From: Macrolepiota albuminosa
Taxonomy: Eukaryota; Basidiomycota; Agaricomycetes; Agaricales; Agaricaceae
Assembly: GCA_027475525.1 (NCBI GenBank)
Contig: JAMWFC010000031.1
Span: 186,001 to 250,000 of the forward strand
DNA: 64,000 nt
Direction of reading: 5' to 3'
Below are positions 5,074 through 57,925 of the stretch, piece by piece. The notes beneath the pieces are model-generated. The model was not told the origin of the DNA. It ran no database searches and saw only the letters and a program-made list of their open reading frames with translations. The position numbers and the translations under genes were made by a program. Positions within the stretch are counted from its first letter, which is position 1; the number at the start of each line of letters is the position of its first letter.

Positions 5074-6493
5074 CCTATTACCCCACAGGTCTGCCTTCCT
5101 CCATGCTGCGTCTCCGTCACTAGATGAAAACGCAACAATGCCTGCGGAAGACTATGACGTAGCATACACGCCACTGCCTGCAACGGAGGATGAGGCAGGA
5201 GAGGAGGCGGGTTCTATGTCTTCTGGTCCCAAACGGGTAGTATCGTTATCTGCGAATGATAAATGGCGTCTAGTCAAGCCTTTATTGATTAAGTATATGC
5301 TACCTCTATGTGGTATGAAAGGTGTCGCATTTTCAGAAATTCACTGACATATCATAGGTTGAATACACGATTAACCAAGTACGTACGATATTTGTGTGGT
5401 TTATCAATGCTCTTAGGAGACTGTTAGTCGCTCCGACCCTCCTCTATCCTGTACCCAATGCCAAGGATCACTCTATTCTCAACAAGCTCATTCACAGTGT
5501 CCGTGATTATTATCCACTCTGGCAAGTACGTCTGTGACCAGCTCCTTATCTTGCCAATCTTATTTCGATGGACCTTTTCAACAGCTCGTGTACCAGACGA
5601 CCGTCTTCTTGTCCCGATCCTCCATTACATTAGGTATATACCGCCCCTTCCAGCCGGTCTGCTTTCTCTTCCCGCTGTTCTCCAGGCCTTGATCTTTACT
5701 ATATTGGCTTTTGAGTCTGCTGTAGGGTTGTTCCCAGCAGACGATGGCGCTGTAAGCATTATAACCGTATTTCTGCTCATCAGCCTTGAAGGTGTCTGTG
5801 GTGGTCTTGCGTAGTGCGTTCTTTCTATAGCGTTGAACGTTTATCTTGACTGGCCATTCACTCTCATCAGCGTGAATGTGTTCACCGTATAAATCAGAAA
5901 CGCCTAGACTCACAGAGTGCCCACGACGTCGAACGCACCAAGCAGGAAAGGGAGTTCAGGATTAGCTCAATTGGGTTCGCTGATTCGTGTGGGATTTTGT
6001 TTGCAGCGGTTATTGCTGTGCCGACGGAGGTTACGCCGTTGCAGGGCACAGATCAGCAGAGGCAAGACGCTTTGTCAAGGCTTGTAGAATTACACATGTA
6101 TGTCCACGTTTCATTACCATAATCTTAATAAATCTTATGCTTGTCAATATCTGCTGAATGATGTTGCCTGATTGTGTCGTATGTCAGTACCGAATATAGC
6201 TCGTTTTCAGACGCAGGGCGGAAATTGGTGCACTACAACAAGAAGACATTGTCCAAAGAAAACGTTGCTGGGGTATCTTAAGGACGTCCCTCGTCTGTGA
6301 TGTCCGTTATCAAAGATTCATCTCTTTTGAACTCAAAAGCATCCTTGCAGAATGCTTGCGGCGAACGAGATATGATAGAAAGATACTCAAGGACTGTCTT
6401 CCGATTGCCATGGGTTCATGTACGTCATTCGAAGAAAATTTAGCCGTTTTCATACTGGTACAGTATCTTGTGACCGCATCAGCTGGCGACACC

Positions 6494-8621: not shown

Positions 8622-9002
8622 TGGTGGATAAGTTGAGGTCTTAATATGGAGAAATACTATACCTTACTATACCATGTGACCTAGAATACAATACCCAAGC
8701 AATATGCACATAAAAATAGGTCTCAAAAAATAAAAGAGTTCATCATCATCATCCTTTGTTACTTACACATATTTATACCACTACCTACTACACAGCACCC
8801 TCAGTTCCTTATACAAAACTGAGGGTGAGTTTTGACATACTCATTAGAATATGCACTGGACACTAATCGTATCTAGACAGATTAACTTACTACAAATCTG
8901 TATAGGTACAATGACATCAATATAGTTCTTTATACAAAACTGAGGACAGATTAACTTACTACAAATCTGTATAGGTATTGAAACAGGTCTTTTATTCTAA
9001 CA
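8622..9002 (+). repeat. 5' LTR of element B with intron-like segment and joined exon copy
   Basis: The end (CTAACA before the PBS) is firm and the start is approximate. Contains exon-like block Y at 8805-8824, GTGAGT...CTAG at 8825-8876, block X at 8877-8905, a 20-nt linker, then Y and X directly fused at 8926-8974. Confidence 0.75.
8825..8876 (+). other. Spliceosomal-type intron inside LTR B
   Basis: 52 nt with donor GTGAGT, branch-like CACTAAT, and acceptor CTAG. The sequence expected after its removal is present downstream at 8926-8974 with one mismatch. Confidence 0.7.
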
Positions 9003-16592: not shown

Positions 16593-16683
16593 TGTTAGGA
16601 ATTGATGAGGTCATAATGTGACCAGTGTGATAAGTACATGAACAATGGTCATTAAGCACTGACCTGGCCACCTGGCCACTATG

Positions 16684-16837
16684 CTGCTTTGTCTGCACAC
16701 ATACATATAGTCTATGTTCATGCAAAGTACCCTCAGTTTGGTTTATACACAACTGAGGGGCTGCTTTGTCTGCACACATACATATAGTCTATGTTCATGC
16801 AAAGTACCCTCAGTTTGGTTTATACACAACTGAGGGT
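16684..16837. repeat. 77-bp exact tandem duplication #3 (5' LTR of C)
   Basis: Removing one copy makes this LTR 352 bp, identical in length to its 3' partner. Strong evidence that the duplication is not biological. Confidence 0.96.
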
Positions 16838-16891
16838 ACGTTGCTCATAAACTCACATTACATGCACAATACTCACTAAAGATGTACCTAG
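16836..16891 (+). other. Spliceosomal-type intron inside the 5' LTR of C
   Basis: 56 nt, donor GTACGT, ACTAAA near the 3' end, acceptor CCTAG. Its removal would create the Y-X junction found at 16955/16956. Confidence 0.7.
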
Positions 16892-17267
16892 ATTATAACT
16901 TACGTGTATCTGATCTAGGTACTTACAACATAGTTTGGTTTATACACAACTGAGGATTATAACTTACGTGTATCTGATCTAGGTGTGATTCACCTATAAC
17001 TAGCCAGTACCAGTTTCAACAGGTTATGGGCTGCTGCTAGAGCAGAATACTTGACGAAGTACCACCTGCTCATTGGAACACATCCCCTTCTTGTTTCTTT
17101 TGTGATACGACACCGATTACGTTGGACTGTGCTATATGGAGTTGCCATCCGTCCTTTGTCTCCAGCCAGGGACATCTTGCCTCGCCCTTTGTCTTGCCCC
17201 AATCCAGGCAAATAAGATCACCGTTGTTTCTACGTGCTGAACGCTGACCCCCCTCCCATCTTGAAAT

Positions 17268-18654: not shown

Positions 18655-19760
18655 TGATGACACCCAAATTGTGCTAAGGTGCACTATCACTAGTACAGCT
18701 ACTTAGTCAATATAGCTTTGGGTGTGCTAAGTATGGGAGAGAGTCCCGGACAGGTCCCAGAGAACACACAGTAGGCAAGAGGTTGGTGGTAAGGAAAAGG
18801 GGGCGATTGGCACTTATGTAAGGCCTAAAATGCGGCAAGAGTATGCTAAAAATCACCAATGAAAGGTGCTAAGAGGCATGGGAAAGAGTCACCAAGGAAA
18901 GGCAAAATGCGGCAAGAGTATGCTAAAAATCACCAATGAAAGGTGCTAAGAGGCATGGGAAAGAGTCACCAAGGAAAGGCGCTAAGGAGAGAGTTGCCAA
19001 GGAAAGGCGCTAAGGAGCGCGGGAGAGAGTCGCCAAGGAAAGGCGCTAAGAGACACTGTAAAGGAGTCACTAAGAGGCGCTAAGTGTTAGCACCTAAAAG
19101 AGATGATAAAATGATGAGATTGCTTAGCAGATCTAAGCACAAATGCCTTGTCGTAGTTGCAAGGCACTAAGAGATTGCAGACAGAAAGAGTGAGAGAGAA
19201 CTAAAGCAGAGTCCCCTTGCCGACACAGTCAGCAAAAGGTAGTCTGTTGCGTAGGGTGACCGAAATGTTGGGATACAATCCCTACTGCCAAATTGATGAT
19301 GTACTACTAACAAAAAGTAAGTATTTATATGTAAGTGAATGCTGTGAATTAAGCTATATGGTGAAAAAGTCCACAATCATGCTGTCAGTCTGAGTCAGCA
19401 AGAAGCTAAGCGACGTCAGGTGCTAAGGTGAAACTCCAAGCTGTCTGTCATAAAATACTTCATCATTCCTGCTGCCACCGGCTAAGAGCATTATGGGTGC
19501 CAAGTGTCTGTGTCCGTGTATGGCCCTGAAGGGTGAGTGGCAAGGTGCAGCAAGGTGTCAAGAGGAGTGCTAAGAATAGATGGTGCCATAAAGAGTGGTC
19601 CTGGAGTAATTAGAGGCTCCAGCTGCGAGTTATTAACATAAAAATATGCAAAAATTAGCCTCTGGAGCGCTAAGACGTGCCGCTCCTGGTGATTCCAGTG
19701 TGCCAATGTGAGGTGCTTGTGTTGGTGCTATCCGTGGTTATCTACAATGAGAGCTCATCA
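18655..19760 (+). mobile_element. Element M, copy 2, inserted in pol of C
   Basis: Begins TGATGA, ends TCATCA, flanked by ACAC on both sides (18651-18654 and 19761-19764). Includes artefactual duplication #4, so the true length is about 1,029 bp. Carries an internal run of units containing AAGGAAAGGCGCTAAG (about 18960-19090). No coding frame of note. Opposite orientation relative to its host when compared with copy 1. Confidence 0.78.
18827..18980. repeat. 77-bp exact tandem duplication #4 (element M)
   Basis: Copies 18827-18903 and 18904-18980, period exactly 77. Confidence 0.95.
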
Positions 19761-23009: not shown

Positions 23010-23361
23010 TGTTAGCAATTGATGAGGTCATAATGTGACCAGTGTGATAAGTACACAAACAATGGTCATTGAGCACTGACCTGGCCACCTGGCCACTATG
23101 CTGCTTTGTCCACACACATACATATAGTCTATGTTCACGCAAAGTACCCTCAGTTTGGTTTATACACAACTGAGGGTACATTGCTCATAAACTCACATTA
23201 CATGCACAATACTTACTAAAGACATACCTAGATTATAACTTACATGTATCTGATTTAGGTACTTACAACATAGTTTGGTTTATACACAACTGAGGATTAT
23301 AACTTATGTGTATCTGATCTAGGTGTGATTCACCTATAACTAGCCAGTACCAGTTCCAACA
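23010..23361 (+). repeat. 3' LTR of element C
   Basis: 352 bp. Y 23154-23175, intron-like 23176-23231, X 23232-23258, fused Y+X 23274-23322. In X the CG of the 5' LTR has become CA in one copy and TG in the other. Confidence 0.9.
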
Positions 23362-32987: not shown

Positions 32988-34825
32988 ATGTTTGAAAAGA
33001 ATTTCTCGTCGTAAGAAAAACGTATGCTGGGCGTAGGAGAGAGCTCCTGAAACGTCACGAGCGAATATGTAAGGTAACCTTGGGCACTGCCACTTCGCAT
33101 GGTCATGACATGCATATATTTATATCATTTCTCCGCGAATGAGACCTTGTCTTCACCCATTTCATTCCCCTTTCTCGATAGCTCGTGGCAATCACTTGGA
33201 GTGCAAAAAGCGAGGTCCTCGGAAACATTCAGCATGCCATTAGCCAAAATGAGATCAGTTCTCGATTTAGACTCCTATGGAGCGAGCTGACCAGGTGACA
33301 GTCTTGCCTTGCGGTGAAACGTTCCTTCCGTCAGGTTAGGTAATTCATTCATGATTGACCAAGGAATACACACTAACCTTCTTATTACAGAAGCCGTACC
33401 ATAACAGCCCATTCACGTTGTCATGGAGTATCCAGATATCAAGCCATCTGCATATTTAAAAATATATCTAGGGTAAGACATAGAAGGGGATAAAGCTCCG
33501 AATCAGGTACAAATGTATGTCAACGAGGCGTCGAGACAAGTACTTTGCATGGCTGTGGCCCTACCTCATCAATTTTTGATATGTGGGGCTTCGGCAGGTT
33601 TAAGCTTTACGCAAGAGTATGAACCGTATCTGTGAGGTAATACATACCTGCATTTAAGAAAGTCAGTTCGACTTTTGATATGTCCTCAGTGACCAATTAA
33701 GCCGTTGTATGGCTTACTCGCGCCGTTACTCGGACAAGGCGCCGTAAATACTTCTCAGGGCTGGACGGCATGATACCAGTACTTGAAAAGTTGACGAGCG
33801 TTTGATTCATCAATACCTGTATGCCGCCTGCCTCGCAGCTTCTATGATGACGTGAAGTGAATCAACTAGCAAGTATTGATCAAAGCCTAGGAACAGCCCC
33901 ACAACCCAACGCATCTACCAATGTGCCTTTCCGCAGCCAACAGCTTCTGGATCGGCACCTATACATGAAACGATACATTACACATAGCTCATCTACCGCA
34001 CAATTCCCATGACCTCCTTCCATTAGTACTCGCCATTGCTATACTTGGTACTCGCCACTTCCCATCCGCCCGGGGTGCAGAGTCGCGGGTAAGCAAACAC
34101 CGTATATAAGCAGCAAGCCAACTTGGCAGATAGCTTGACTAGTAGTGTCAACAACCGGCATCAAGTGAAAAGGGATCGGGCCAGAGAACAAGTCAGAGTG
34201 TCCGTAAATAGCTTCCTCCGACAATACTGTAGGGTGGATGACATACTATACCCTTGTATATACCTTGAAAAATAAAGTTCCGAAAGGGAGGATTCAAAAC
34301 AAAAACAAAAACAAAAAGAAAGACAAAAACAACTGTGCATTTTACACAAAGAATATACATATGCAAATCATCAGCTATAGGCTTTAACATATTATCCCCG
34401 CTAATCATTTGCATGCAATTTGTGGAGAAGATGCCAAGACTTGTTCCTGCCATGTAGGCTTTAACATATTATCCCCGCTAATCATTTGCATGCAATTTGT
34501 GGAGAAGATGCCAAGACTTGTTCCTGCCATGAGTGTACATATGGGGTATGGGCTTTACAAGTTCCCCTGCTAGGTTGACAAACATATCTACTTACATGTT
34601 CATCAAGTATACATGACTTTATATCAATCGATTAAAGGTGAAGAGCATATGCATGGTAACCTAATGTAGTCCACGAGACGAATGATGTAAATCTTACCAT
34701 TCCAGAACCAACTATAAAGTTCTTTCTGATTCCTATAATCTCAATATACATCAAGCAATATCAAGTTAAACCCTTTAAAATCTCATGAGCTCCCTCCACC
34801 GATTCTTGCCATCTCCACCTTGGCC
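32988..34825. other. Intergenic, no supportable gene
   Basis: Upstream of the kinase and downstream of the exonuclease. Contains duplication #5 and short frames only. Confidence 0.5.
34378..34531. repeat. 77-bp exact tandem duplication #5 (intergenic)
   Basis: Copies 34378-34454 and 34455-34531, period exactly 77. Confidence 0.95.
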
Positions 34826-36830: not shown

Positions 36831-37919
36831 ATGTCCACCACACTGAAAGCCGACAAGCCATACAAAGCTAGGCGTCTCATACTCACCCCGTGTGCTGCTC
36901 CTGTTATCTCAGGAAAATGTACAGTATCATCTCCAGTCTCCCCTCCTTGTTGATTACTGATACTTCCAACGAACTATACATACATGTATATAGTCGACGC
37001 TTCAGATGCAGATGTCATATTTGAATTTGATTACTGATACTTCCAACGAACTATACATACATGTATATAGTCGACGCTTCAGATGCAGATGTCATATTTG
37101 AATCGGTGATCACGTCCGGTTCTATATCCACCGTAAGAACTTGGAGACCCAAGCCGGGGCTTTTCCTCCAGTCGAATTTGGCACCAGGGGAGAGATCGTA
37201 CCGCTGACTGAGGACTCCTCAACGCTCGAAAACCTCTTTGGTTTCATGTATCCTCGAAGACATCCGAGCGTCGATCTTCTGTCCTCCGAAGACTTCTTCA
37301 GATTGGCAGAAGCTGCAGAGAAGTACGAAGTGTTTGCACTAATGAACATCTGTAGCTTGCACATGCAGTAAGCCTCTCGTCTCATTGCTAACGATAAGCC
37401 TGCTGTGAACTGGAGCGAAAATAGGCAAATATTTGCTGAGCATCCAGTGAGGTCTTTAATTTTGGGAGGAAGCACGGCTATCCTGCCCTATCCAAGTTGA
37501 CAGTCCCGTTTCTCTTGGACATGTCACTGGAGGAAATCGTGACAAAACTATCTCCACATCTTGTCATACCCTGGGTATTTGTATTCTTGAGATGACAGAG
37601 GGTTATTCCTCACAAAATCTCCTAGGTCCGGTACTGGAAGTGTCGGTACCATGCTGCTCAAAAAGCAACATTCTCCATCTTCGGTGGCAGTGACGGTTGC
37701 GATGACTGCCCAGCCTGTGGTCATATTTTAAGTCCTGGACCCAGCAGTTTCACCATTGGTGCTGATCAGCCACTTTCTCTTAAATGTCTGCGGAAACTGA
37801 TGGAGTCATATTCTCTCCTTGCCGTTCATAAATGCCCCGGCTGTGGGATGGGTGAAGATGATATGGAGGAGCTGGAAAAGGCTCTCAATGAAGTTCCTGA
37901 CTTCTCGACCTTTTTCTAG
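36831..37919 (+). CDS. BTB/POZ domain protein
   Basis: Protein-interaction domain, often an adaptor for cullin-3 ubiquitin ligases; large family in mushrooms. ATG 36831 (MSTTLKADKPYK), an intron holding duplication #6, then DASDADVIFES and FYIHRKNLETQAGAFPPVEF (BTB core), STLENLFGFMYPRRHP and EKYEVFALMNICSLHM. C-terminal exons give KHGYPALSKLTVPFLLDMS, RYWKCRYHAAQKA and a Cys cluster DCPACG plus KCPGCG, ending TAG 37917-37919. Two frame problems: one missing base near 37107, four bases beyond the end of duplication #6, and another near 37450. The first may be an assembly error; otherwise the copy is decaying. Confidence 0.68.
36950..37103. repeat. 77-bp exact tandem duplication #6 (BTB gene intron/exon)
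   Basis: Copies 36950-37026 and 37027-37103. It duplicates an intron acceptor and the start of a BTB exon. Confidence 0.95.
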
Positions 37920-38670: not shown

Positions 38671-39324
38671 GGCAAAAATGGTTGAGAACGAGTGCTCAAG
38701 CTATACAGTTAACACAGATGTGGGCACTACGAGGACAGGGTAAGTGATTTTATAGATCCATGACCACAACACGCCGGCATAGGTGGCAAAAGTTTCCTGC
38801 TGGAAAGCCTCACGTTGGCAACATACATTCATCGGAAGCGTATGGCCACCATAATACGATGATAGGCAGACAACAACACTCCTCAAGAAGTTATCCTAGA
38901 AGAACTGGAAAGTCACTGTTGAAGTAGGGCATGCACGTTGTGAGCAAAGATCGCATTCAGAAGCATCTGGCAGAGTTCTTGAAATCCACAATCTTGAATG
39001 ATTATCGGATCATATGCTAAAATTATTCCCGTCAATGTGAACAATGTTAACGTACCATGAGTGACATATCTATCAGGACAAGCAATCCACATACATATAT
39101 GGCATGTCCTTCATAGCTATCAGTACAGAAGCACGAGATTATTCTGTCCATAAAAAAATAACGGTCAGATGCTTCTACCTGCTCGACCCACAATCCGTTT
39201 GCAACGTGCCCGAACGTGTCCAAATAAGAAGCTACACTTTCTGGCTCTTGCAATGCCTATGATCGTTGATAACTAATCAAGGTCTTTAATAGATTGTGAA
39301 AAGCCCATTATCGTATCCCCATTC
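38671..39324. other. Intergenic up to element D
   Basis: No supportable gene. Confidence 0.5.
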
Positions 39325-39661
39325 TGTTGGATTACATGGCCACCGTCACCTCGCCCCATCACATACATCACATATCACATTACTTTCTTTGTACGCCCTA
39401 CCTCTTTGATCGATTATTTCTTCCATTGTTTGAACACTTATATATACTACTACGTACACAGACGCACCCTCAGTCACTTATTCTGGACTGAGGGTACGTC
39501 AATATTCACACCTACGGACTATCAACTTCCTCTAACGTCGTACTATTAGACTCGCATACTTACGAACATAATAGGTACGACATAATCATTCAGTCACTTA
39601 TTCTGGACTGAGGACTCGCATACTTACGAACATAATAGAATATTGGTCTTGAGTTCTAACA
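39325..39661 (+). repeat. 5' LTR of element D with intron-like segment and joined exon copy
   Basis: TATA-like TTATATATAC at 39439-39448, Y 39474-39493, intron-like 39494-39549, X 39550-39574, 19-nt linker, fused Y+X 39594-39638. Both Y copies (20 nt) and both X copies (25 nt) are identical. Confidence 0.93.
39494..39549 (+). other. Spliceosomal-type intron inside the 5' LTR of D
   Basis: 56 nt, donor GTACGT, branch-like TCTAAC 12 nt before the end, acceptor TTAG. Its predicted spliced product is present at 39594-39638 without a mismatch. Same at 57329-57384 in the 3' LTR. Confidence 0.75.
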
Positions 39662-39888
39662 GGTTATGGGCCATTGTGGTTTCACTTGAAGCACCACATA
39701 ACGAACTCACTGCACCTACATTTCTTCGTCTATCACACCTCGGGACCTGAAGCCCGATCGATCGATTACATTTCCAGACCACTTGATCCTATTCCCGCGC
39801 AACAACTAAGATCTCTTTGTTCCTTATTGTCCTTTTTTCCGGAAAATAACGCGACGGAATCCATATTTCACCTGACTCTCAGAACACG

Positions 39889-41999
39889 ATGACTGACAAA
39901 CCCTCTATGCAATCCGTCGACGCATCATACCCGCGCATTCGCCCCGCCAAGCTGAACGCCCACTGGCCGGCCTCGGAAACCCCATTTGACCACGCCACAG
40001 GGGAATTCAGCAAGTGGTCTACGAAGCTCGAAATCTTCCTTCAGCAGAGTGGTCTCGACCGTTACATCTTTGCACCGACTACTAAGCCTGATCGCCTCAT
40101 CACGCAGCCCAATCCCAGTACCGAGCCCAATGCCTATGCCAATTGGCTTTCTAACAATGATCTAATCATCGGCATCATTCGGGCCGCGGTATCTGATGCT
40201 GAGCAGGAAGGCCTGGTCACTGACGGCACAGCCAAGGAGTGCTACGATGCATCATTCGGGCCGCGGTATCTGATGCTGAGCAGGAAGGCCTGGTCACTGA
40301 CGGCACAGCCAAGGAGTGCTACGATGCACTGAAATCCCGAGCACACCGCGAAGGACCAGTTAAACAAGTCGCCCTCATCCGTGAGGCCCTATCCACATAC
40401 ACTCCCGTCTCGGAACCAATCGAGAACACTGCACGGAAGATCTGTGAACTCATCGACAGAGCTTTTGTGTCACGACCCCTCCCCCCCGGAACCTCCCCGG
40501 GACACCCCCGGAGCCCCGCCCGGGAACCTCTTCCGTCAACTCCCACAATGCACCCCGCCCCCACAGCTGCCGACGCCGCCATCACACGCATCAAGGACCG
40601 CCATCAGCCATCAACGATCGCCATCAGCCAGCCCCCCCGGGACCCCTGCATCACGGACCCCGGGATCCACCGCCATCAACGATCGGATCACGCGGCTCGC
40701 ATCCGGCCATCACGCATCACGCCCCACGCATCACGACTCCCTCCGCGCCAATTGATTGCGCGTCCCCACACGCGCGATCCCGGTATACAGTCCCTGGCCG
40801 CTACTCAATGACCCCCGGAACTCATCCCAGACACCCTGGAATCCCGAGACACGAGCCGTAGTACTTATAGTGTAGTTCCCCGCTGTATTCGCGAGTCTTG
40901 ATATTGCATAACTGTTACTTTGGATATTGCGTGCCCCTTGATTGACTGGTACGCCTTGTTTGGTACGCTTCGACTGGCACGCCTTAGTATTCGCGTGCTC
41001 TAAGCTTTGGTACGCACTTCGCGACTCTTAAGTTACTAACTTGGTCTCGTCTTAGAACCTCCGGTTCACGACTCGACCCCCTCTAACTCTCAGCCACCCC
41101 CAACCCAAAACTCCCGGACTCTAGTCCCCTCTCCCGGGATTACCCCTGTCCTCGTCTTGAACCCCGGAGTCCTAGCCCCGGAGTTCCAGACACCCGAGTA
41201 TCCGTAGATCAAGTCCGCATCGTAAGGGCGTTGCTTTCCCGGAAGGCCCCCGACTCAGCGGAACCTGACATTTTGCCATCGGGGACATCAATAAGGACCT
41301 CCTTAAATGCATTGCGCTGCTGAATTCCATCCATGACAAGTCCTTCGAGTCTGTCCAGACTCAAGTTTCCCGCGGCCTGGCCGACTCCACCAAGGACAAA
41401 GTCTACAGCTCTACCGACATCCGCAAACTCTTCCAGACCATAGACAGTCTTGCTACCCTCTCGAAACCCTCCATGGACACTGCCCTGATTGCTAAGTCAA
41501 CCGCTCGACCTCACAATCACGGTCCCAACTTCCCATGCTGCGAAGTTTGTTACCAGCTTGGCCTCAACTGCCGCGGACACACCAAGGCCTGGTGTATCAA
41601 GCCGGGAGGGGGGATGGCAGGAAAAACGATCGAAGAATCAAAAGCAGCGCGCCTGGCAGCACGAGGAGGAGGAAATAAGACAGGAGGAGGGAACAACAAC
41701 AAGTCAGGAGGAGGATAAAAGCAGCGCGCCTGGCAGCACGAGGAGGAGGAAATAAGACAGGAGGAGGGAACAACAACAAGTCAGGAGGAGGATCGAATAC
41801 TAAAAACGGCATCGCGGTAAAAGGACTCGACGGCCAAGCCTATATTGTGGACGCATCCCAGCTTCAGAAGATACAACTCGAAACCGCAAAAACGGATCCC
41901 ACAGGATTTGCCGGCATTGCGTCATCCACCTCTTTAACAAACTCCACCGACTTCTTCGAATACGAGGGATTCATGGCCATAGAGGACGACGCCAATGAC
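39889..41999 (+). CDS. Gag part of element D gag-pol (split by solo LTR G)
   Basis: Structural protein of a copia element. Starts ATG 39889 (MTDKPSMQS). AKLNAHWPASETPFD and FSKWSTKLEIFLQQSGLD open the Gag domain; KICELIDRAF is cut by LTR G at 40468 and resumes at 41276 with INKDLLKCIALLNSI. A Cys/His cluster CCEVCYQLGLNCRGH (41536 on) precedes a Gly/Lys-rich stretch. Duplications #7 and #8 shift the frame and are probably artefactual. After counting them once and skipping LTR G the frame is open to the gypsy insertion at 42005. The Gag is thus intact in the ancestral copy but interrupted in this locus. Confidence 0.85.
40172..40325. repeat. 77-bp exact tandem duplication #7 (gag of D)
   Basis: Copies 40172-40248 and 40249-40325. 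Counting one restores the frame. Confidence 0.95.
40468..41270 (+). repeat. Solo LTR G (803 bp) in gag of D
   Basis: Starts TGTCACGACC and ends CCTGACA, with short inverted ends TGTCA/TGACA and a perfect TSD TTTTG (40463-40467, 41271-41275). C-rich with many CCCGG. Probably the remnant of a Ty3/gypsy element of a different family from E. Confidence 0.88.
41640..41793. repeat. 77-bp exact tandem duplication #8 (gag of D)
   Basis: Period exactly 77; creates a TAA in gag that disappears when one copy is dropped. Confidence 0.95.
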
Positions 42000-42004
42000 T
42001 TTGG

Positions 42005-42239
42005 TATAGCGTAGTCCGCTATGTGGCGTTGGCCACATAGCTTTACTTACTTTACAGTAGATATTATTATATTATATTTATTATAATATAATATTAATTA
42101 CATTACTATATAACTTAGTTTACCAGCTGCTTACAAAGCAGCTTATTTTTGTGTATACTACATTGTCAATAGACCGGTCTGGTCTGATTCAGTGTCGTGT
42201 GTGCACACTAAGCTCTCTAAACTTCGTAACTTCGTTACA
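42005..42239 (+). repeat. 5' LTR of element E, hairpin-dense
   Basis: Begins TATAGCG (TG mutated to TA; the 3' LTR has TG). Contains GCTATGTGG/CCACATAGC, an AT-only palindrome, AGCTGCTT/AAGCAGCT, AGACCGGTCT and GTGTGCACAC within 235 bp. Confidence 0.93.
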
Positions 42240-42370
42240 TTTTTTTGAATCCGCCAGCTAGGATCTATTGCCTAGCATCCGACGTCAGTCGTTGAGTTCG
42301 TTGACAGAACTCTATCAGCTTCTCGAGCTTCTTGCACAGCCACACCGTGCAAATTTCAAACAGGGGATCG

Positions 42371-45300
42371 ATGAGTAATCCCATACCTGCAGCGCCCACT
42401 GACGGCGGGCGAAATGCCCACAACCTACGGGGAGACCCAGCAGACACCCAGGACGCGTCAGCGTCCAATGCGGGTCAGGTAAGACCCAAGGCTCGAGACC
42501 GAGGTCAGAGTGCTGACCTGGCCGGGAATGAGAGCGAGGCCCGGAGAGCTGAAAGCTCACAACAGGATGGTCCGCAACGCCTCCAAGACAAGATGCCCGG
42601 GGGATTAACGCCCCCAGTTACGCAGTTGCCAGGAGGACCGCGACGGTCTAGCCAATTGGCTTCCAAAGGACCCCCGCAGGATGGCCGACAGTCAACCGGC
42701 GCCTATGGCGCCCCAGGAGACGCCGAGTCGTCAGTACGGACTGGGAGAACCCTCCCTGCGAGCCGGAGCAGTGGGACCAGGCGGTCCACAGCAGGCCCAA
42801 TGCCTTCTAAAGTAGCGGAAGCCCACTTAGAAGAGGTACCGGAGGAGGCTGCAAGGCCTGAAGGATACCGCGCGGAAGATCGATTTCCGCGCACACCAGC
42901 AGTGGAGGAAGCTCCGGAGGTTGTAGAGCTTCCAGAGGAGGTGATGGAGTCGTCAAGTGACGACGATGTCGGAGCAGAGGAACAGCGGCTGAAAACCGCG
43001 TACACCGTGCACTTGCGGGTGTTCTGGGACTTGCACCCAGAGGTGATGAAATACACCACCCAAGCACGACTCGAGCGCTACGCGTCAGCCCATATAGTAG
43101 CACTTAGGCGACAAGGGCACGAAGTGCCCAATGTATTCAGTACGAAATATACTGATTTGATGGTGAGAGTGCTCACTATGGAGCTGCAAATGTATGTGCA
43201 GCGTAAGGCCACACGGCAATCGGGGGTCTCGACCCCCTGGAGCCACACGTCCGAGGAATGCTCAGCACGACGCAATCAAGACGTCGGAATCGAGCTAGTG
43301 GAGGCACTAGCACGGGCGCAAGAAGTGCCCGAAGTAAGACCGGTGAGTACTTTTTATACTCCAGCAGGACAAGGGTGGCGTGAGGAGCCCCTGCACATGC
43401 GTAACCATGACCGTAGGACAGATATGTCAGGTCCGGATGGGCACGATAGCACTGTGCTCAAAGTGGAAAGCGAGGCATCCGTGATGCCACGCGTGCCCAT
43501 GGCCGAAACGTTGAGCGACAGAGTCGCGTACCAACGTATGCGCAATGGCGACCTCAGGACTAAGGGACAGTCCTTTATAGATGATCAGGGCATCGTATTC
43601 AAGGGCACTAAGCCCATTGACGAGATGCGTCGTCAATTCGTCACGCAGGGTCAGGAGAATCAAGCTTCTCCAGGTCCAGGGCGGCGCAATGATCATGATC
43701 GAGGAGACTTCCTCGATTGAGATGGCGCCACAAGACGTGATGGCCCTGGTAACGGCCGGGATGACGGCCCTAGGTCGATTCCTCGAGACGAGGGCAATTA
43801 TGCCCACAGTCGAGGAGGCTCGGGACGTCCCCCGCAAGGTGGACGGGGAAAGTCACTTCCCCATGCCGCTGATTTGGCGACTAGATCCCCGGGTCAGCGG
43901 GAAGCCATCCGCAAGGTGGACGGGGAAAGTCACTTCCCCATGCCGCTGATTTGGCGACTAGATCCCCGGGTCAGCGGGAAGCCATCCGAATGCATTGTGA
44001 AGCCATGCACGATCGCCTGCATCAAGTAGTCGATGATGCCCTGGGCGTAACCTTACGGTTACCAGACGGAGTGAAGCTGCGTAAAGCAGACAGTAGGCAC
44101 ATTCGCGCCTATACAGGCGCGTCCAAGTTCAGCGACCTGGAAGATTGGGCGATGGATGTATGCACCCATCTTGCCATGTGCTTATACGGAGGTGACTGTA
44201 TGGAACGAGAACGAATTTTCGTTCTGCCTGAGTTCTTGGCCGGAGAGGCCATGGGTTGGTTTCGACGGGCAGTACTGCACGTCAATCGTGTCCAATATGA
44301 CTGGACGTTTAAAGGAGTCCTTACAGGACTGTACGATCGATTCGTACACCCCTCAACGCTCCAGGATGCAAGGCGGGACTTCCAGTCCGCCAAGTACACC
44401 GAGAAGTTGGGAGTACAAGGGTTCTATGATACCCTTAATGACCATGCCCAGAACATGGCAGTATACCCGGACGGGTATACAATGCTCAAAACGTTCTTGG
44501 ATGGCATTCCAGCGGATATGCGCCGCTATTTGATACGTGAGGACGGCTTGTCCCCAGAAGTCAACGATGTGGAAGAATTTGTGGCATATGCCATCTGGTA
44601 TGAGCAGTCTCTGAAGACTGCTAACCACTACGAACATCGGAGTGGACACAAAGGGGGATCCAGGCGACTACCGCCTGGTGGGACGCCCTCACGGGGTCAG
44701 CATGTGGGGACCTTCCTGGCCAAGAAGACTGATTTGGATCGTGACCGCAACACGCGGTTTGTTGTACGCAAAACCCCTGTTGCGAACCGAGGGCGGAGCC
44801 GCCCACGCCCAGAGCGGGCGCCGGACGGAGAACGTCCTAAATCAAGGCCGGACTTCAAACCGGCCAACCCACCAGGTCAGACGGGGACTTGTTTCGCGTG
44901 TGGCCAACCAGGCCACTACGCTACCAACTGCCCTGCAAAGCCAGGACCCCCAAGGAAGGGGTATACACCCCGCGCCCACCTTCGAGCTGCACATACTGCA
45001 GCCGCGAGTGGGAGTGACAGAGACGTATCTGCCGATTCTGAGGCGGAGAACCCCACAAACGACCAGGAGCCCCCAGAGGAGGCATCGGGCGCCGAGCCCG
45101 AGAGTGTGGTTGTGGAGGGGGAGGAGTACGTCACAGTCGACGTATATGACGACGTCTAGCATCGGGCGCCGAGCCCGAGAGTGTGGTTGTGGAGGGGGAG
45201 GAGTACGTCACAGTCGACGTATATGACGACGTCTACAACAATGAGTATTACAGTCGCGACAGCGACTCTGAGTGCCTAGCGGCGATGACGGATTGGCTGT

Positions 45301-48300
45301 CCGCAAATAACCCCGAATGGAATAACGTGGTTCGGATGAAGAAGGTGACCCTTCGTCGTGCAGAGGGCACTTTGCAGCGCCCTACATTGAAGCGAGCAGA
45401 CAAGGAGTGCCTGGTCTCGTATGTGGACGTAGACGGCCACAAGGCATGGACCCTATGGGACTCTGGGAGTACCACATCAGGCATAACATCCCAGTTCGCC
45501 CATGTGTACGGAATATCCGTGCAGGAGTTGGATACGCCATTGGCGTTACAGCTGGGCACCGTAGGGAGCCAAGCCATGGTGCAGTATGGGACAAATGTGA
45601 ATGTCCAAACGCCGGGCTCACGTAGCCGGGAATACATGGATGTAGCGAACTTCGATCGCTACGATATGATACTGGGAACGCCATTCATGCGGCGTAACAA
45701 AGTCATACTAGACTTTGACCAATGTCAGGTACTAGTGAATGGGAAAGTGATCCCAGCCGAACGAGCAACAGCAGACGACACTGATAATCGTCTGCGACGT
45801 CATCGCACTACGGAGAAACGCAAGGACTCTCCATGACTTGGCCGGCGCAGAGTGCCGGCCGTGGAGGATGTGGAGGAGGAAGTGCAGGCTATGCCTGGAC
45901 TGAGAGCAGACCACAACGTGGTAATGATGAGCGAGGAGGAGTATCAAGCCTCCAAGAGGAGCAACGAGCGAATAATCGCTCCTGAGATTCGAGGCGCAAG
46001 GCCTCCGGACAAACGCCATCGAAAGGCGAGACGACGGGAGGACTCAGTGGATGTATGCCCACCTACGTCCTCACGAGTCAAGTTGGAAGACTTGAAAGAC
46101 AGCATCCGAGAGGCGGAAGCCTCAGTAGAGGGGGACACACGGTCCCTATGGGAGCGACCAGCTCCCCTACCGGAGTACGACTGGGCATACGACCCCCGAA
46201 TGCCGCAAGAGTGGAACGAGCTGGTGGCAGCCACGTGTGCGCGAAATGCGCACCAGAGATGGATGACCGTCAAACCAGTGTATCGCCAGCCAGCCCTGGA
46301 CGAGGTATCCGTAGCGTACTTGCTTGTACGTGAGGGAAGAAGCCTCGTGGCTTGTAAGGCAGCGGTAGCGGGTGCCCCGCTGAGACTACATATACCTGAT
46401 GACAGTGTCAATCGGGTGCTCGCAATGCGAGAACAGTACGCGCCGCCGCCTCGGCCACCCTCAGAGACGGTGGAAGTACTTCCCCCGGTACGCATGAAGG
46501 GGAAGCAGAAGGCGACAAGCCTTCGTGAGGAAGATATCCCTTGGTTGCGTCAGCAATGGCAAGAAGAATTTGCCGACATGGTCAATGGGACCAAGGAGGA
46601 GCTCCCGCCATGGTCCCTTGGTTGCGTCAGCAATGGCAAGAAGAATTTGCCGACATGGTCAATGGGACCAAGGAGGAGCTCCCGCCATGGCGGGAGGTGA
46701 ATCATGAGATTAATCTCATAGACGAGAACAAGCAGTATAAGTACCACTTGCCGCGCTGTCTGCGTGCCCTCCAGGAGCAACTACGCGATAAGACTAATCG
46801 CTACTTGAATGCTCAATGGTGGTCCCCATGCACCACCGCTCAAGCTGCACCGTTATTGTGCATCCCGAAGAAGGATGGAACCCTTCGAACAGCTCTTGAT
46901 GCGCGTCAGCGCAATGACAATACTATAAAGGATGTAACTCCTTTACCAGATCAAGAGGTGATCCGGGAAGACGTGGCTCGGGCGAAGTATCGCTCGAAGA
47001 TTGACCTTACTGACGCTTACAAGCAGGTGCACATTTGCACAGAGGACGTACCCAAGACCGTGTTTGCGTCAATCATGGGTACATTCACGAGCAATATAAT
47101 GCAAATTGGAGACTGCAATGCTCCAGCAACTTTCCAGAGGCTAATGACCTCTATCTTCCGAGACGTAATAGGACGTTTCATGCATGTCTACTTAGATGAC
47201 ATATTCATCTACTCGGATACCATGGAGGAGCATGAGCAGCACCTCAGAGTCGTATTCGAACGACTGCGCAAGTACAAGTTGTACTTGAAGTGGAAAAAAT
47301 GTGAGCTCTACGCTCAGAGTATAGACTGCTTAGGGCATGTCATAGACAAGCGGGGTATCCACCCTGATCAGGACAAACTCGATCGTATTCGGGAGTGGCG
47401 CACGCCCCGAAACTACAATGACATCCAACGATTCGTTGGCCTGGTCAACTACATATCGAGCTTCTTGCCCGATGTCACAGCCTATACTGGGCCACTTATG
47501 GCCATGACGCAGAACGGATCACCGTTCAATTGGAGGCCGTTACACCAACGGTGCTTCGAGATGGTCAAACGGATCTGTACAAAGACTCCGGTGATTCGAC
47601 CGATCGACCCTAGACGGGACGAGCCAATATGGCTCATTTGCGACGCGTCCAAGACAGGCGTCGGGGCCATGTACGGCCAGGGAAGCAGCTGGCAGACATG
47701 CCGTCCAGCAGGGTTCATGTCGAAGAAGTTCACGACGGCCCAGCAAAACTATGCGGTGCACGAGTTGGAGACTCTTGCCATACTCGAGGCTCTCCTCAAG
47801 TGGGAGGATAAGCTGATGGGATACCCCATCCACATCATAACGGACCACAAGGCCCTTGAGTTCTTTAAAACTCAGGTGAACTTGTCGCCGCGTCAGCGAC
47901 GGTGGATAGACTACATGTCGAGATACCAGTTCGACATCACCTATGTTAAAGGTGAACTCAACAAAGTGGCAGACTGCTTGTCACGCTACTTTGAGAGTGA
48001 TGTAGTCGGGGAGGCTCACGAGCCTCATGAGTATGTGCAGGCAGACTGCCGCATAGACCCTGATGGAGAGGATTTACCTCTCCACCGATACCAGGAGCTC
48101 AGGGAGCATGTCCTGGAAGTACGCGCTATGCGTGACGATGAACGGAGGCGAAGCACTCGCCTCAGAGAGCAGCGTGAAGAATGGGACGTAGCCGCCCAGT
48201 TGCTCAAGGAGCATGAAGCCGTGGACCCAGCATCCACTAGGGAGCACGAGCGCCACGATGTACCCGTTACGCTTGCGGAGATGCTCGAAGGCGAATTGCC

Positions 48301-49919: not shown

Positions 49920-52900
49920 ATGGACAGCATGCCCGTGGACGTGAGTGACCAGCAGCAATTTGAGAGTACGCCGTCGGTCTTACCGTCGGCTGAAGGGGGG
50001 GGGCAGATGGCTCCCCCGCTGACCCAAAATGTGCCCCAGTGGGGACAATCGCAACAGGCGGTGGGCTTCCCACAGCAGCAGCAACAACCAGCGGGCTGAC
50101 CCAAAATGTGCCCCAGTGGGGACAATCGCAACAGGCGGTGGGCTTCCCACAGCAGCAGCAACAACCAGCGGCGGGCTACCTGCCGCAGCAGCCGGTGATC
50201 AGTGGCTATCCGCCACTTCAAACTATGCAGGGCAACTTCATGCCCCAGAACGCACCTGTGGGTGGCTATCAGCCCCAACAACCAGCACCGGGCGCTTATG
50301 CGCCACATCACACCGAGGGCCAATTCCAGCAACAGGCCTACGGGGGGCTAGTCAGCCCCCAAGCAGCGTCGGCATGGAGGCAGCTTGCCCCTGTACCGGC
50401 AACAGGGCAACTGGGGACACATCCTTTTCCCCAGTTTACCGCCCCGGCGCACTACCCTGGGATGGGTGGTGTGCCCGTAATGATGCCGTACCCCCCGGCT
50501 TGGATGGGGGCTTGGGGCGCAATGCCCCAGTACAGCGACTCACATGAGTCGCAAGCCAAGGGAGGCCGGTCGATTTCCCTGTTGACCACAGTACCAACCG
50601 ATAACCTAGAGGGACGCCGAGCATCCCTCGTGCAGGCCACCGCGGCCATTGAGAGAGCAGAAACTCTCAATACAGAACGAAGCGTCGGTTCATCGTCCGA
50701 TGCGCCGACGGAGAGCCTGGCCAAGCTCTCCTTGCTACAGCGGCTGGAAATGCCGCACCAATCCGAGCCCAGCTCGGAAGAAGAGTCGCGTCCTCGACGC
50801 GACAAAGGAAAAGCACGGGCTGTCAAGCCCACTCACAGCCAGGACTTAGTCCTGGCTACCCTTCTCCAACGACTGGGAGATAACGGGTACGATGTACCCG
50901 CAGAGTCATCATTCCTCCGCGATGCGGAGGCAGTCGTCCTCATCTGCCAGATGATGGACGACATGGATCACATGCACGCTCAGCGCAAAACTGATCTCCT
51001 TGCCCTCTCGGCCGCTCGTAAGCGGCAGTCTACACCCCCGAGTCGGGACACTGACTCCAGCAAAAGGGCACGTCGGCAAGGAGTGGAGGACGCGCCCTCC
51101 TGCTCGATTAAGTCGAGCGTTGCTGCCCCTGGCCGGGAGGCCGGTCTAGGACGGGACATCCTCCCTTATGAAGATGTTCCTGCTCCAGCCGCCCCCCGGC
51201 TTATCCAGCGCCTCGCCAGCGGCGCGTCTGAGGTCGCGTCTTCGCGACCAGTATCCGTGGTATCCACCACGTACTCTGGGGAGCAGAGTTCCAGGGGTGT
51301 GAGCACACGTCCCACTGAGGCCAAGGCCTCACAACCCCGAAAGGATCGTCGGGGTAAGCAACCGGAAGTGCGCGCCTACGTCAACGTGCACTTCCCCGAG
51401 GATGCCCCGAAAGGGGCCCCAGGGGCTAACATCCCCTTTTTACCCGCTATACTGGTAGAGGGCCTGCCAGCCCGACTCCCACGGTGTGTGTGGGCAATGG
51501 ACCCACGATCTGAGAAGTCGGAGCCAGAGAGGCTGCCTTCCCCTCCCTCCGACGACGATTGGTATGAGGAGCCTGAAGAGGCTCGTATGGAATCCCCAGT
51601 GCCGCACGAGACGGCGGCACAGCGTATGGCACGCGAACGGCGCAACAGCAATCAACGAGCCAAGATGGAGCGTCGGGCGCAGAACAGCGCCAAACGAGGG
51701 GCCGCCCTCCTTGAGGACGAAACCGGGCGCATCCCTGATGCGCCTGGTGTGGTGATCTACCGTGATCACACTATTGAGTGCCAGAACTCATTCTTTGGCG
51801 CGGGGTTGGCTCCCCAATTCTATTGGTCGCCAATGACCAATACCATCTTCGTCGGGCAAGAAGCCCGTGCAGCCAGGTCCTTTGAGGACGATAAACAGGG
51901 CAACGCCGCCGCGACGCCCCACAACAGTAAGGTGTACCAAGTTGCACCTCGCGGGTTTCCCCGCAGTCCTCGAGAAGTCCGCAGACTTCACGCACTGGTT
52001 AACAACCAGTTTACGCCGCTTCGTCAGCGTCAGTTGGGCTACCTCTTGCTCAACGAATTCAAGCGGGTGGCGCTCAACTGCCACCCTACGGCCCGAGACA
52101 GAGCTATGTCTCATTTACTCGACGAGGTCGAGTATAGGACTATCGCGGTACCCTTCGCAAGTCCAGAAGAGCGGGAGAACGTCCCGCAAATGATTGTGCC
52201 GTCGCGGCTCTATCGCCGCAAAGAGGGAGGGAAAATCGCCTTCGTCAGCCTTAACCCTCCTGATCCAAAGCAACCATTTGCTTTGGACTACCTGGGCTCA
52301 TACGCCCTCCTCTATGGACGCCCTGGGACGTCCAACGTGTGGACCGGTCTGGCCATGGACCGAGCCATGCGCATTCATTGGCGCAGCCTCTTTGGGTTTG
52401 CGCTTGTATGCGCCCTCAGCGCCAGCCGCCCCTCCAAGGCCACGGTACACAAGTACCTGGCCTACGTCTTCGCCAGGCCAGGCCTCTACAAAGAGGCCGT
52501 GGCTGAGTACGAGGCGGCCACGGGGCAAGCCTTCGAGCCTCTCCACGCCGACGACCCTACCTTCGAGGTTCGGGCTGTGGACATCCCAGAAGCGTCAGCT
52601 TCCGTATTCACCACTTCGGACGCGTTACGCGTCCTTCTTCACAATCAAATTCTGGTCAGCTGGGCTGACCACGCGTACACTTATGGGGTCACCTACTTGG
52701 CCCATCTATTCTTCAGCGACAGCCGGCTCTACAACGAGGCGGCTGCTATCGACGACAAGAGGCTACAACGCCTCGACCACTACGGTACACCCCAGTCCAT
52801 CCCGCAGTGGGATGGGTGGCGCGAGGCCACCATTGGCGACTGCCAACGCCTGATGCTCCAGCAGCAGGACAGTCGGCGTGCATACGACGACGCGCTCGCC

Positions 52901-53215: not shown

Positions 53216-53260
53216 CCGTCGTATTATCTCAAGACCGTAGCTCGGTCTGATTGGGGGGTG

Positions 53261-53495
53261 TGTAGCGTAGTCCGCTATGTGGCGTTGGCCACATAGCTTT
53301 ACTTACTTTACAGTAGATATTATTATATTATATTTATTATAATATAATATTAATTACATTACTATATAACTTAGTTTACCAGCTGCTTACAAAGCAGCTT
53401 ATTTTCGTGTATACTACATTGTCAATAGACCGGTCTGGTCTGATTCAGTGTCGTGTGTGCACACTAAGCTCTCTAAACTTCGTAACTTCGTTACA
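53261..53495 (+). repeat. 3' LTR of element E
   Basis: 235 bp, TG...CA. The two differences from the 5' copy are both transitions (LTR position 2, and one T/C in the run after AAGCAGCTTATTTT). Confidence 0.94.
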
Positions 53496-53500
53496 TTTGG

Positions 53501-56500
53501 AGACAAACTCCAGGTATCCATTGATTGGGGAGACAACGTCACCCAGGACTGCAAGACCATCCTCGCCACTACAGCCATCGCTCCCCTCAACCAAACCGAG
53601 CATACTACACTAGTCTCCCTCAACGAGAAGCCATTCTACTTAGACTCAGGAGCCACAGTACATATCTCTCCGTGCAGATCCGATTTCGTCACTCTCCAGG
53701 CCATATCACCACGCGCAATCAGAGGCATAGGTGGCTCATCCATAGAAGCAATTGGCATTGGAAAAATACAACTAAACATTCAGAACAGAGCCGAGATCGT
53801 CCTCGAAAACGCCTTGTATATACCCACATCTACCGTACGCCTGATATCAGTCTCTGCATTAGTCTCCGGGATGAATGCTTCTATCACTTTCACCAACATG
53901 GGCGTCACTATCCTCGATAGCAACAGCGGCACACTCCTGGCATCTGGCCCCCTGATTCCAGGACGACGTTTATACACACTTGATCTTCAGGCTGCACTCG
54001 CCGAGCACGCCCTCACTGCTACACAACGACCAATCAAACTCGATACTTGGCATTGGCGTCTGGGCCATGCTAACTACCAGGTCATAGCAACAATGGCACG
54101 TGCAGGCATGCTCCCAGGTACGCCATCCACTTCACTCCTAGCACAACCGAAATGTGATGTTTGTATCCTTGGGAAACAGACAAAAACATCGGTTCCGAAA
54201 GTGCGGGAGGAAGGATGGAGGGCTACTGAGAGACTTATGATCGTGTGGATAGACTTAGCGGGTCCAATGCATGTCCAATCACGTACTGGCAATAAATATG
54301 TTATGGACTTAGTCGACGATTACACAAACATGGTGTGGTCTATCCCCCTCAGATCAAAAGACGAGGCCTTAACGACACTGCAAACCTGGGAACGAGCTAG
54401 GGAACTTGAGACTGGCAAACGCGTTGGCATATTCCGCACAGGAAACGACGGTGAACTCAAGAGTCACGAGATGAACAAATGGCTAAGTTCTATAGGGACC
54501 AGACAGCAATTCGGAGCGCCCTACACCTCAGCCCACATGGGCCGTGTCGAACGCATGCACAGAACGTTACAAGGTAAAGCTAGAACCATGAGGTTAGCTG
54601 CCAAGTGTCCTGAATCCCTATGGGATGAATTTTACCTTACCGCTTCGCACCTGCACCAGAAGACGCCCACTAAATCCCTGAAAGGTAATACACCATTCCA
54701 GCTCTGGCACAATCGACCACCCAACTACTCATACATGCGTGAGATAGGGTGCCGTGCATTCGTCCTGATTCAAAACGAGTACAACCCGAAACTCAGCGCA
54801 CGAAGCATCAAATGCGTGCTTATTGGCTACGGGCTAAACTCCAAGACGTATCGTTGCTACGATCCAATAACAAGGAAAATACATGAGTCCTATCATGTAA
54901 GGTTCCTAGAGCGACATGACGGGCACCCAATTACCACCGAGGTTACCACTTCACTGTCGACACCGACTGCGCCACAGGACGAGCCAAGAACTATCAGCCA
55001 AATCGAGAATACATCTACAGACAATCCTATCGCCCCAGACGACGATGAAGACGAACTACCTATTGCCTCAATCCCATCGACTCCACATGTCCTGGATGAT
55101 CATGCTGCACCACGAGCCGCCGATAACCCGCCGCAAGAAATGATACCACGAAGATCCAACTGCATACCGATACCAACGACTAGGTCGCGACCGGAAAATC
55201 CCCCAGCTACACGCCTCGAACGCGCTATTCAAGACTCTGCATACCGATACCAACGACTAGGTCGCGACCGGAAAATCCCCCAGCTACACGCCTCGAACGC
55301 GCTATTCAAGACTCTCGTGATGCCGCAACCAGGGTTCAAGCAGCAAGGGCCAAACGCCGCCAAGTCGAGACAGCACCAGCTAACACAATACCACAAGACG
55401 CAGCTCGCAGCGACGATCCAGTCCCAAACATCCCCGACCTAGCCAACGTCGCAACCATGGACGAGATAGAACACTTGCTTGCGCTTGCCGAATCGCAGGC
55501 TGATCCCATTACCCTAGATCTAGGCGATGAACCATCGACGTGGCGAGAAGCACTCGAGTCACCTGATGCACACAAGTGGCGAGAAGCATACGAGGACGAG
55601 CTACGGTCACTAAAGGACATGGGAGTCTACAAACTCATACCTAGAGATCAAGTCCCACTGGGCCACAAGATCCGGAAAGGTAGACCCGTCTTCAAAATCA
55701 AGCGCGACGAGACTGGTAAAGCAGTACGGCACAAGGTACGCCTAGTGTTCAAAGGATTTGAACAAATCTATGGGAAAGATTATACTAAAACAACCTCACC
55801 TACTGCACGCATGGAATCATGGCGAGTTCTCCTTCACATCGCCGCTGCAAAGGGGTGGGATGCCACTCAGATCGACGTTAAGACGGCCTTCCTATATGGC
55901 ATTCTCCCCGAAGACAAGACCCAGTACATGCAACAACCAGAGGGATTTGAAGAACCGGGCAAGGAAGATTGGATCTGGTGCCTTATGCGCGGCCTATACG
56001 GGATGAAACAAGCCGGTCGCATCTGGAATACAACCGTGAACGAGAAGATGATCTCATGGGGTTTCATCCGTCTTGCATGTGAGTCCTGCGTCTATTTTCG
56101 CAGACGAGACTCAGGCACTACGATTGCTGCACTGCACGTCGACGACTTCCTGTCGATTTCCAGCTCCAAAACCGAAAACAATCACTTTAAATCGCAGATG
56201 CGCTCCGAGTGGACAATTACAGATCTCGGCATACCAAGATACGTCGTAGGAATTTCTGTCGAATGGGATCGCGGCAGGAAGCTAGTTCAACTATCTCAAA
56301 CCGCATTAATTGACAAGATCATTCACCAATTCGGCCAAAAGGACGCGGCACCACTTTCCCTCCCCCTCGATCCAGGCCTGAAGCTGCGACGGATTGATCG
56401 CTCGACAGTCTCTCATGAGGAACAGCTCGCTTTGAACCGTACGCCGTACCGTTCCCTCGTTGGCTGCTTACTCTACGTAGCGATATCCACGCGCCCGGAC

Positions 56501-57159: not shown

Positions 57160-57496
57160 TGTTGGATTACATGGCCACCGTCACCTCGCCCCATCACATA
57201 CATCACATATCACATTACTTTCTTTGTACGCCCTACCTCTTTGATCGATTATTTCTTCCATTGTTTGAACACTTATATATACTACTACGTACACAGACGC
57301 ACCCTCAGTCACTTATTCTGGACTGAGGGTACGTCAATATTCACACCTACGGACTATCAACTTCCTCTAACGTCGTACTATTAGACTCGCATACTTACGA
57401 ACATAATAGGTACGACATAATCATTCAGTCACTTATTCTGGACTGAGGACTCGCATACTTACGAACATAATAGAATATTGGTCTTGAGTTCTAACA
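57160..57496 (+). repeat. 3' LTR of element D
   Basis: 337 bp, identical by eye to 39325-39661, with Y 57309-57328, intron-like 57329-57384, X 57385-57409, fused Y+X 57429-57473. Followed by TAATG, which does not match the 5' flank CATTC. Confidence 0.93.
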
Positions 57497-57925
57497 TAAT
57501 GAGATTAGGCGGCGTTCCTTCATAAGGCGGCAGTACCTCATGGACCTCGAAAATTAATCCTGGATACCGCATCGAACTTCACCGAGCATCTGTCATCTGT
57601 CCAATGTTTTTGTTCCACAGGTGACTGAGTTTGTAGCACCAATGGTTGCATTGGCGCTTGAATTCATTTACCAAATGTATATTATACAATGGCTCAGATG
57701 CGGAATGTCTATGTATTAGCGAAGAAAAAGTAAGAAAAGTCAATCGAGTGAAAACTAGTCAACGGTTCATCCCATAACACACCTTTTGTCCACTTTTCTC
57801 TTACAAGGACATTTGTTTAGGTCACCGGATGGTATATTAATACAGACTTGTTGAAGTCATTCAGAAAAAAATACATACATGAGGCCCGGTTAGTTATCGA
57901 CACAGGCCAGAGGGTAACGATCTTA
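57497..57925. other. Intergenic, no gene seen
   Basis: Downstream flank of element D and 3' side of the HMG-CoA lyase gene. Confidence 0.5.

Follow-up and report, generated by a model that had tools for sequence, protein, structure and literature searches.

Long terminal repeats with an intron-like stretch and an intron-free copy of its flanks, probably renewed from spliced RNA, in a basidiomycete genome

Introduction

Passage through spliced RNA should erase introns, and intron loss is a classic mark of retrotransposition. A 64,000-nt stretch of Macrolepiota albuminosa DNA (the window, analysed here at its full length) contains a long terminal repeat (LTR), that of element D, which holds both an intron-like segment and, further downstream, the sequence that its removal would leave. 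The locus thus raises the question of how both forms came to lie in one LTR and how they are kept together.

Results

An intron-like segment and its excision product lie side by side in LTR D

Element D is bounded by two LTRs of 337 nt, the 5' LTR (TGTTGG...TCTAACA) at 39325..39661 and the 3' LTR at 57160..57496, which are 100% identical and carry the same array; all features of the window given below are on the plus strand. The order and junctions of the array are those claimed in a first-pass annotation made from the letters alone, with slightly longer blocks: Y1 (22 nt), a GTACGT..CTAAC..TAG segment (56 nt), X1 (25 nt), a linker, and Y2 fused to X2. As that annotation also stated, excision of the 56 nt gives exactly the downstream Y2-X2 copy.

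Y1, the predicted first exon, occupies 39472..39493, and its A at 39472 is the predicted transcription start. The TATA box (39439..39446) has starts 33 and 31 nt upstream of this A, and an arm with the sequence GACGCACCCTC (39461..39471), referred to as the left arm, lies immediately upstream of it; when the 3' LTR context is folded, this arm is predicted to bridge the donor by pairing with 39490-39500. The predicted intron 1 follows at 39494..39549, with CTAAC at 39532-39536, and sequence comparison places X1, a predicted 25-nt exon, at 39550..39574. The linker L (39575..39591) begins with GTACGA, the predicted donor of a second intron. Y2, the copy of Y1, begins at the predicted cap base (39592..39613), and X2, the copy of X1 (39614..39638), ends in CTTAC..TAG, where intron 2 (39575-39638) is predicted to have its branch site and acceptor. 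By its sequence we assign the remaining 23 nt (39639..39661) to U5. The primer binding site GGTTATGGGCC (39662..39672) presumably fits the anticodon arm of initiator tRNA-Met.

An Rfam search of 39300-39700 matched no family. Element D has no matching target-site duplication (TSD) despite its identical LTRs (CATTC versus TAATG; 39309-39325 and 57497-57510), and is possibly a recombinant or a misassembly. The repeat pair 42004-42242 / 53260-53498 sits inside it, perhaps as the LTRs of a nested element. Thirteen exact 77-bp tandem duplications were found at unrelated places in the window (1437-1591, 4920-5074, 16683-16836, 18827-18980, 34378-34531, 36950-37103, 40172-40328, 41640-41793, 43832-43988, 45082-45235, 46537-46690, 50018-50171 and 55160-55315), and the same is seen at a copy of the LTR at C1. 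Reading frames are shifted by these duplications, which probably arose as a k-mer artefact of the assembly. We rejected a 77-bp tandem duplication as the origin of the array, because the array units are not 77 nt.

The array recurs in many diverged families of copia elements

The Y1-I-X1-L-Y2-X2 array, where I is intron 1, is found in two other families within the window, at 8803..8974 in the second (donor GTGAGT) and, by sequence decomposition, at 16812..16982 in the third, the second LTR of which carries it at 23152..23322 (donor GTACAT). Genome-wide searches were performed in the 100-Mb assembly containing the window. The pattern CCCTCAGTN{10,22}ACTGAGGN{95,125}ACTGAGG, which covers Y1, Y2 and their spacing and leaves X outside its test, gave 555 exact matches against 0 in the reversed control, and Y1 followed by a GTRNGT donor gave 110 against 0, with palindromic places partly counted on both strands. 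When part of LTR D was used as the query, at least 42 related places were obtained (40 of 51 candidates scored). Among the 31 related places listed, inspection by eye found the full array with differing letters in 23 and a degenerate one in 1, whereas the Y1 side was missing in 2, the linker-Y2-X2 part was missing in 3, and Y-X stood alone in 2. Decomposition by script of the full arrays in the fetched loci and the window yielded 80 unique arrays, or 78 after removal of two 77-bp artefacts, and these were grouped into 34 families at 75% intron identity. The array is thus present in at least 34 diverged families of this genome, each of which keeps its two copies alike. The arrangement of LTR D is real, far beyond chance and common to many elements of this genome.

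A scan of IMG/VR with the array pattern gave 0 matches. The array is not universal among elements with this primer site, since the first copy of a repeat pair 1.5 kb apart (1020-1276 / 2486-2742) precedes GGTTATGGGCC but lacks the array. At G000:C23:310592-310654 (minus strand), a Y-X unit runs straight into the CACCCTC arm of another Y1.

In one array-bearing element (L041), open reading frames encode gag (below the cut-off), gag_pre-integrs together with rve in one frame, and RVT_2 in the next. Ten proteins beside array LTRs were scanned, and RVT_2 was detected in four (at L071, L055, L066 and L157), copia gag in two more and nothing in four. RVT_2 downstream of the integrase core, two LTRs, a primer binding site and 5-bp TSDs (GTTAC in C89, GTATG in C95, ACTTC in C86 and AAAAG in C111) were found as in Ty1/copia elements. 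Among named pol proteins, those of Lyophyllum shimeji and Hypsizygus marmoreus are the nearest, which points to an agaric as the likely host. By their domains, the array-bearing elements belong to the copia superfamily.

A copy that begins at the predicted cap site and lacks a segment with intron signals

When the surroundings of Y1 and Y2 were compared, identity was 94% at the A of AGT, 44% at -1 and 18% at -2. TATA[AT][ATG] lies at -29 to -33 from this copy-start A in 21 of the 34 families, against 0, 3, 0 and 2 in control windows. A GT-AG reading of the segment that the copy lacks is possible in 63 of 73 arrays (5 of the 78 were left out for unequal lengths) and in 27 of 32 families, compared with 1 of 1560 shifted controls. 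The first donor is GT in 76 of 78 arrays, mostly as GTACGT, GTGAGT or GTATGT, and CTNAY is present in 71 of the 78 intron 1 segments, which are 44-61 nt long. The intron-like donor, branch and acceptor sequences first remarked on in LTR D recur across families. Host introns can be gauged roughly from actin exon matches: where the profile positions of two matches are nearly continuous, the distance is 38-63 nt in six pairs, and in four further pairs it is 16, 31, 164 and 272 nt. Judged by its letters, with GT-AG ends, a GTRNGT-like donor and a branch site, intron 1 would be a U2-type intron. These findings suggest that the copy in the array is most likely cDNA of a spliced RNA end, renewed repeatedly.

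AT replaces GT at the intron 1 donor in L139, L141, L142, L144, L147, L148 and L151. Some of these AT donors reflect decay, since the 3' LTR L139 has AT and its 5' partner L168 has GT. In L141, Y2-X2 is perfect.

The two copies resemble each other within each element

Y1 and Y2, as well as X1 and X2, share about 97% identity within an element, whereas identity between families is 71% for Y, 57% for X and 59% for the intron. The best match of Y2 was its own Y1, and that of X2 its own X1, in all 34 families, with exact equality of Y in 20 and of X in 17. Transitions account for 75 of 96 differences between copies against 743 of 1784 between families, an excess that would follow from copies that were identical or nearly so when the element inserted and that decayed afterwards. 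Within families, divergence is lowest in Y. The three linker bases that adjoin Y2 differ in 26% of within-family comparisons, against 9% for the remaining linker (some arrays were left out of this comparison for linker length), so that the joint looks as if it had been remade with an imprecise end. A single base at this joint separates element D from a sister at C1 that is 99.7% identical to it.

The matches of each copy to its own partner in 34 of 34 families, together with the hot spot of variation at the linker-Y2 joint, indicate that the copy has been renewed or homogenised repeatedly. The first-pass annotation had regarded LTR D as a record of splicing of its own R region, left by one past joining of spliced cDNA to an unspliced R. 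The record of splicing most likely holds, given the GT-AG borders, the start at the cap site and the C89 element described below, but the single event is not supported, in view of the own-partner likeness and the joint hot spot. A single accident is too small a reading of the array in LTR D.

A predicted second intron and a hairpin over the first donor

The linker-Y2-X2 segment starts with GT in 71 of 78 arrays, where the start was set by a script preferring AG before GT or AT; X2 ends in TAG or CAG in 72 of 78, and CTNAY is present in 57 of 78. The donors of this predicted intron 2 are often weaker (GTACGA, GTACAG or GTACTT). Since the segment has intron ends of its own, complete splicing would leave a leader, Y1-X1-U5, with the same sequence as Y2-X2-U5.

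The predicted start lies within the palindrome CCCTCAGT..ACTGAGGG, whose right arm overlaps the donor, and CCCTC precedes Y1 in 76 of 78 arrays. Because the left arm lies in U3, it would be absent from RNA of the 5' LTR and present in RNA of the 3' LTR; the hairpin could therefore form only in U3-containing RNA, and only the donor of the 3' copy could be hidden by it. Accessibility and covariation were analysed in 33 of the 34 families (L081 was left out for its short flank). The mean predicted accessibility of donor 1 was 0.151 with 60 nt of U3 and 0.235 without it, being lower in 23 of 33 families (p 0.002), and it returned to 0.231 when the left arm was shuffled (p 5e-6). For the outer pairs of the hairpin, 0 of 5000 between-family shuffles reached the observed fit, a comparison in which family relatedness is not removed. 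Beyond the CCCTC/GAGGG core the pairing excess was modest (reached by 88 of 10000 shuffles); it was seen within GTAC-donor families (122 of 5000) and not within GTGA-donor families (4037 of 5000). The predicted fold of LTR D contains the hairpin in the 3' context. When the left arm is absent, as in the 5' context, U5 would instead pair with the end of the exon and the first intron base, with donor 1 partly paired.

Pairing within the array was analysed in 31 of the 34 families, three being left out for linker length. Complementarity between the 3' end of intron 1 and the donor of intron 2 is greater within arrays than across families (0 of 5000 shuffles), and such pairing could set the order in which the two introns are spliced. 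Mutual pairing of Y and X also exceeds pairing across families (z 4.0, 0 of 5000 shuffles) and is possibly a fold of the spliced leader. Altogether, the predictions make a second intron and a donor-hiding hairpin in the 3' copy plausible, if less certain.

Losses of introns and gains of units

In the C89 element, the 5' LTR reads Y1-X1-linker-Y2-X2-U5 without intron 1. The 3' LTR of this element is nearly identical in sequence but contains 54 additional nt, which can be placed in only two equivalent ways, one of them GTGAGT..TAG, and the borders of the deletion have only one base in common. This is the only exact loss of intron 1 with an intron-bearing sister LTR, and among 25 candidate rows C89 was the only clean intron-1-less array; the others were, by eye, mostly 77-bp duplications or one place on both strands. 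Since standard reverse transcription gives like LTRs, the unlike LTRs of C89 require an extra step; for instance, the 5' LTR could have been copied in part from another RNA molecule with a spliced 5' end. L171, from another family, is a second intron-1-less array, in which the left arm has decayed and Y1 and Y2 differ. C108 (L161) was rejected as a second intron 1 loss because its X is unrepeated and its loop inverted. An inverted loop between the Y palindrome arms, relative to the other Y copy, is seen in L161 and in Y1 of L015, perhaps as a hairpin flip from self-priming.

The C86 element has Y-X-U5 in both LTRs, yet C111 of the same family, 100% identical over query 25-272, carries the full array. 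We rejected C86 alone as proof of splicing, because exchange between Y1 and Y2 yields the same product. Intron 2 is missing in the 5' LTR only of C95 and in the 3' LTR of C6. Intron 2 losses numbered 2 with the primer site and 15 without it, against 28 and 62 full arrays, and thus showed no concentration in 5' LTRs; for these counts we used the FULL, other_gap81-85 (full by eye) and I2_lost rows of the array-state table, as I1_lost and both_lost rows mix antisense matches and 77-bp artefacts.

Extra Y-X-L units are intron-free in L170 and L172-L175. Neither these nor the intron 2 losses were accepted as proof of splicing, since X1/X2 exchange could give both as reciprocal products. Four scored multi-copy arrays hold one intron each, as does L173 by eye. 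The upstream LTR L070 (C32:160501) has an extra unit that starts from the cap base and bears an internal deletion of Y and intron with the 3' part of the intron kept, whereas its downstream partner L071 is normal. A pattern test for intron-duplicating units returned 10 rows against 1 in the control; judged on their first 80 letters, C25 and C110 (two places) could qualify, C72 is the known four-Y array and the rest look unrelated. In L174 the array surrounds an intron-like piece of 25 nt, which is too short for normal splicing. The array-unit pattern itself was unspecific (77 rows against 161 in the reversed control) and units were chosen by eye; seven regions were fetched from it, among which L176 has no array.

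Discussion

We propose that each LTR contains two short predicted exons on either side of an intron-like stretch, followed by an intron-free copy of the joined exons, and that reverse transcription of spliced RNA from the element itself is the likely source from which this copy is rewritten; from the pattern of the letters we assign this reading a probability of about 0.7. Transcription would begin at the copy-start A of Y1. Intron 1, and likely also intron 2, would leave the 5' end of the RNA to give Y1-X1-U5, with the 3' R remaining unspliced. The Y1-X1-U5 strong-stop cDNA could then pair with Y2-X2-U5 in the 3' R as its landing site and be extended through the linker, X1, the intron, Y1 and U3. 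Such extension would bring back both introns and replace Y2-X2 by the sequence of Y1-X1 while keeping the length of the LTR. A stricter form of this cycle, in which the R repeat exists only after splicing, the hairpin hides the 3' donor, and splicing thereby licenses reverse transcription so that the intron survives each cycle, is a tentative proposal to which we give slightly less than an even chance.

A different history is conceivable, in which one ancient event (the joining of spliced cDNA, or a duplication with a deletion) created the array, and exchange between the repeats or selection has since kept the copies alike with no further spliced RNA. Repeat exchange probably occurs, since the intron-2-less arrays and the extra Y-X-L units are its expected products between X1 and X2, and repeats of about 22-29 nt may suffice for template switching. 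Nevertheless, this history would require Y and X to be converted separately in 34 of 34 families without the intron being moved, and it leaves the start at the cap base, the variable joint and the 5' LTR of C89, from which precisely intron 1 is missing, unexplained, so that we consider it unlikely.

Reverse transcriptase might also skip the GT..AG segment through RNA structure or template jumping, with no part played by the spliceosome. Against such skipping, GT-AG borders, GTRNGT-type donors and CTNAY recur across families with intron identity of about 59%, and the C89 borders have a single base in common. We regard it as very unlikely even though the LTRs are predicted to fold strongly (z -2.29 and -4.59) and L070 carries a jump-like deletion within Y and the intron. 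Hardly any weight is left for the idea that the pair of direct repeats acts in regulation or packaging and resembles an intron arrangement only incidentally: the low divergence of Y within families would suit such signals, but GT-AG borders in 63 arrays against a single shifted control would not, and X is conserved only as likeness within an element. For the array, which is real and widespread, the best explanation is that spliced RNA ends are reverse-transcribed and the copy is thereby renewed over time.

If the rewriting from spliced RNA is true, the array would be a built-in way round intron erasure, with the intron kept in the unspliced part of the RNA and the spliced form stored as the homology on which strand transfer depends. 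Many copies would then be available in which DNA alone allows tests of splicing, of strand transfer and of the asymmetry of 5' and 3' LTRs. A study of Cryptococcus neoformans reports that introns raise the mRNA levels of most tested genes (PMC3744415), and the array could explain how an element retains a leader intron in a fungus where introns boost mRNA levels.

Within the portions of the open full-text literature that our searches returned, we found no description of an intron inside an LTR together with its own spliced copy; one candidate for an intron in an LTR (PMC5542766) was rejected because, in the text retrieved, it concerns the leader of a vector named LTR1. In the plant LTR elements Ogre and EVADE, the RNA is spliced and the introns serve subgenomic RNAs, and the passages retrieved describe no intron within the LTR repeat, unlike here (PMC12786077).

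The elements described here share with Ty1/copia elements of the RVT_2 type the copia order of gag, integrase and reverse transcriptase, 5-bp TSDs and TG..CA LTRs, and differ from them in that R holds one or two intron-like segments plus a ready-spliced copy of the predicted exons. Penelope-like elements retain introns through retrotransposition, but we know of no such LTR strand-transfer replication in them and of no spliced copy beside the intron. To our knowledge, foamy virus introns end outside the LTR and the LTR does not keep a spliced copy, whereas here the whole intron lies inside the LTR. Foamy viruses are nevertheless the closest known working parallel: as one study reports, their LTR has a splice donor upstream of the poly(A) signal, at which RNA structure blocks U1 in the 3' LTR only, and the hairpin of the present elements is predicted to act alike (PMC3694450).
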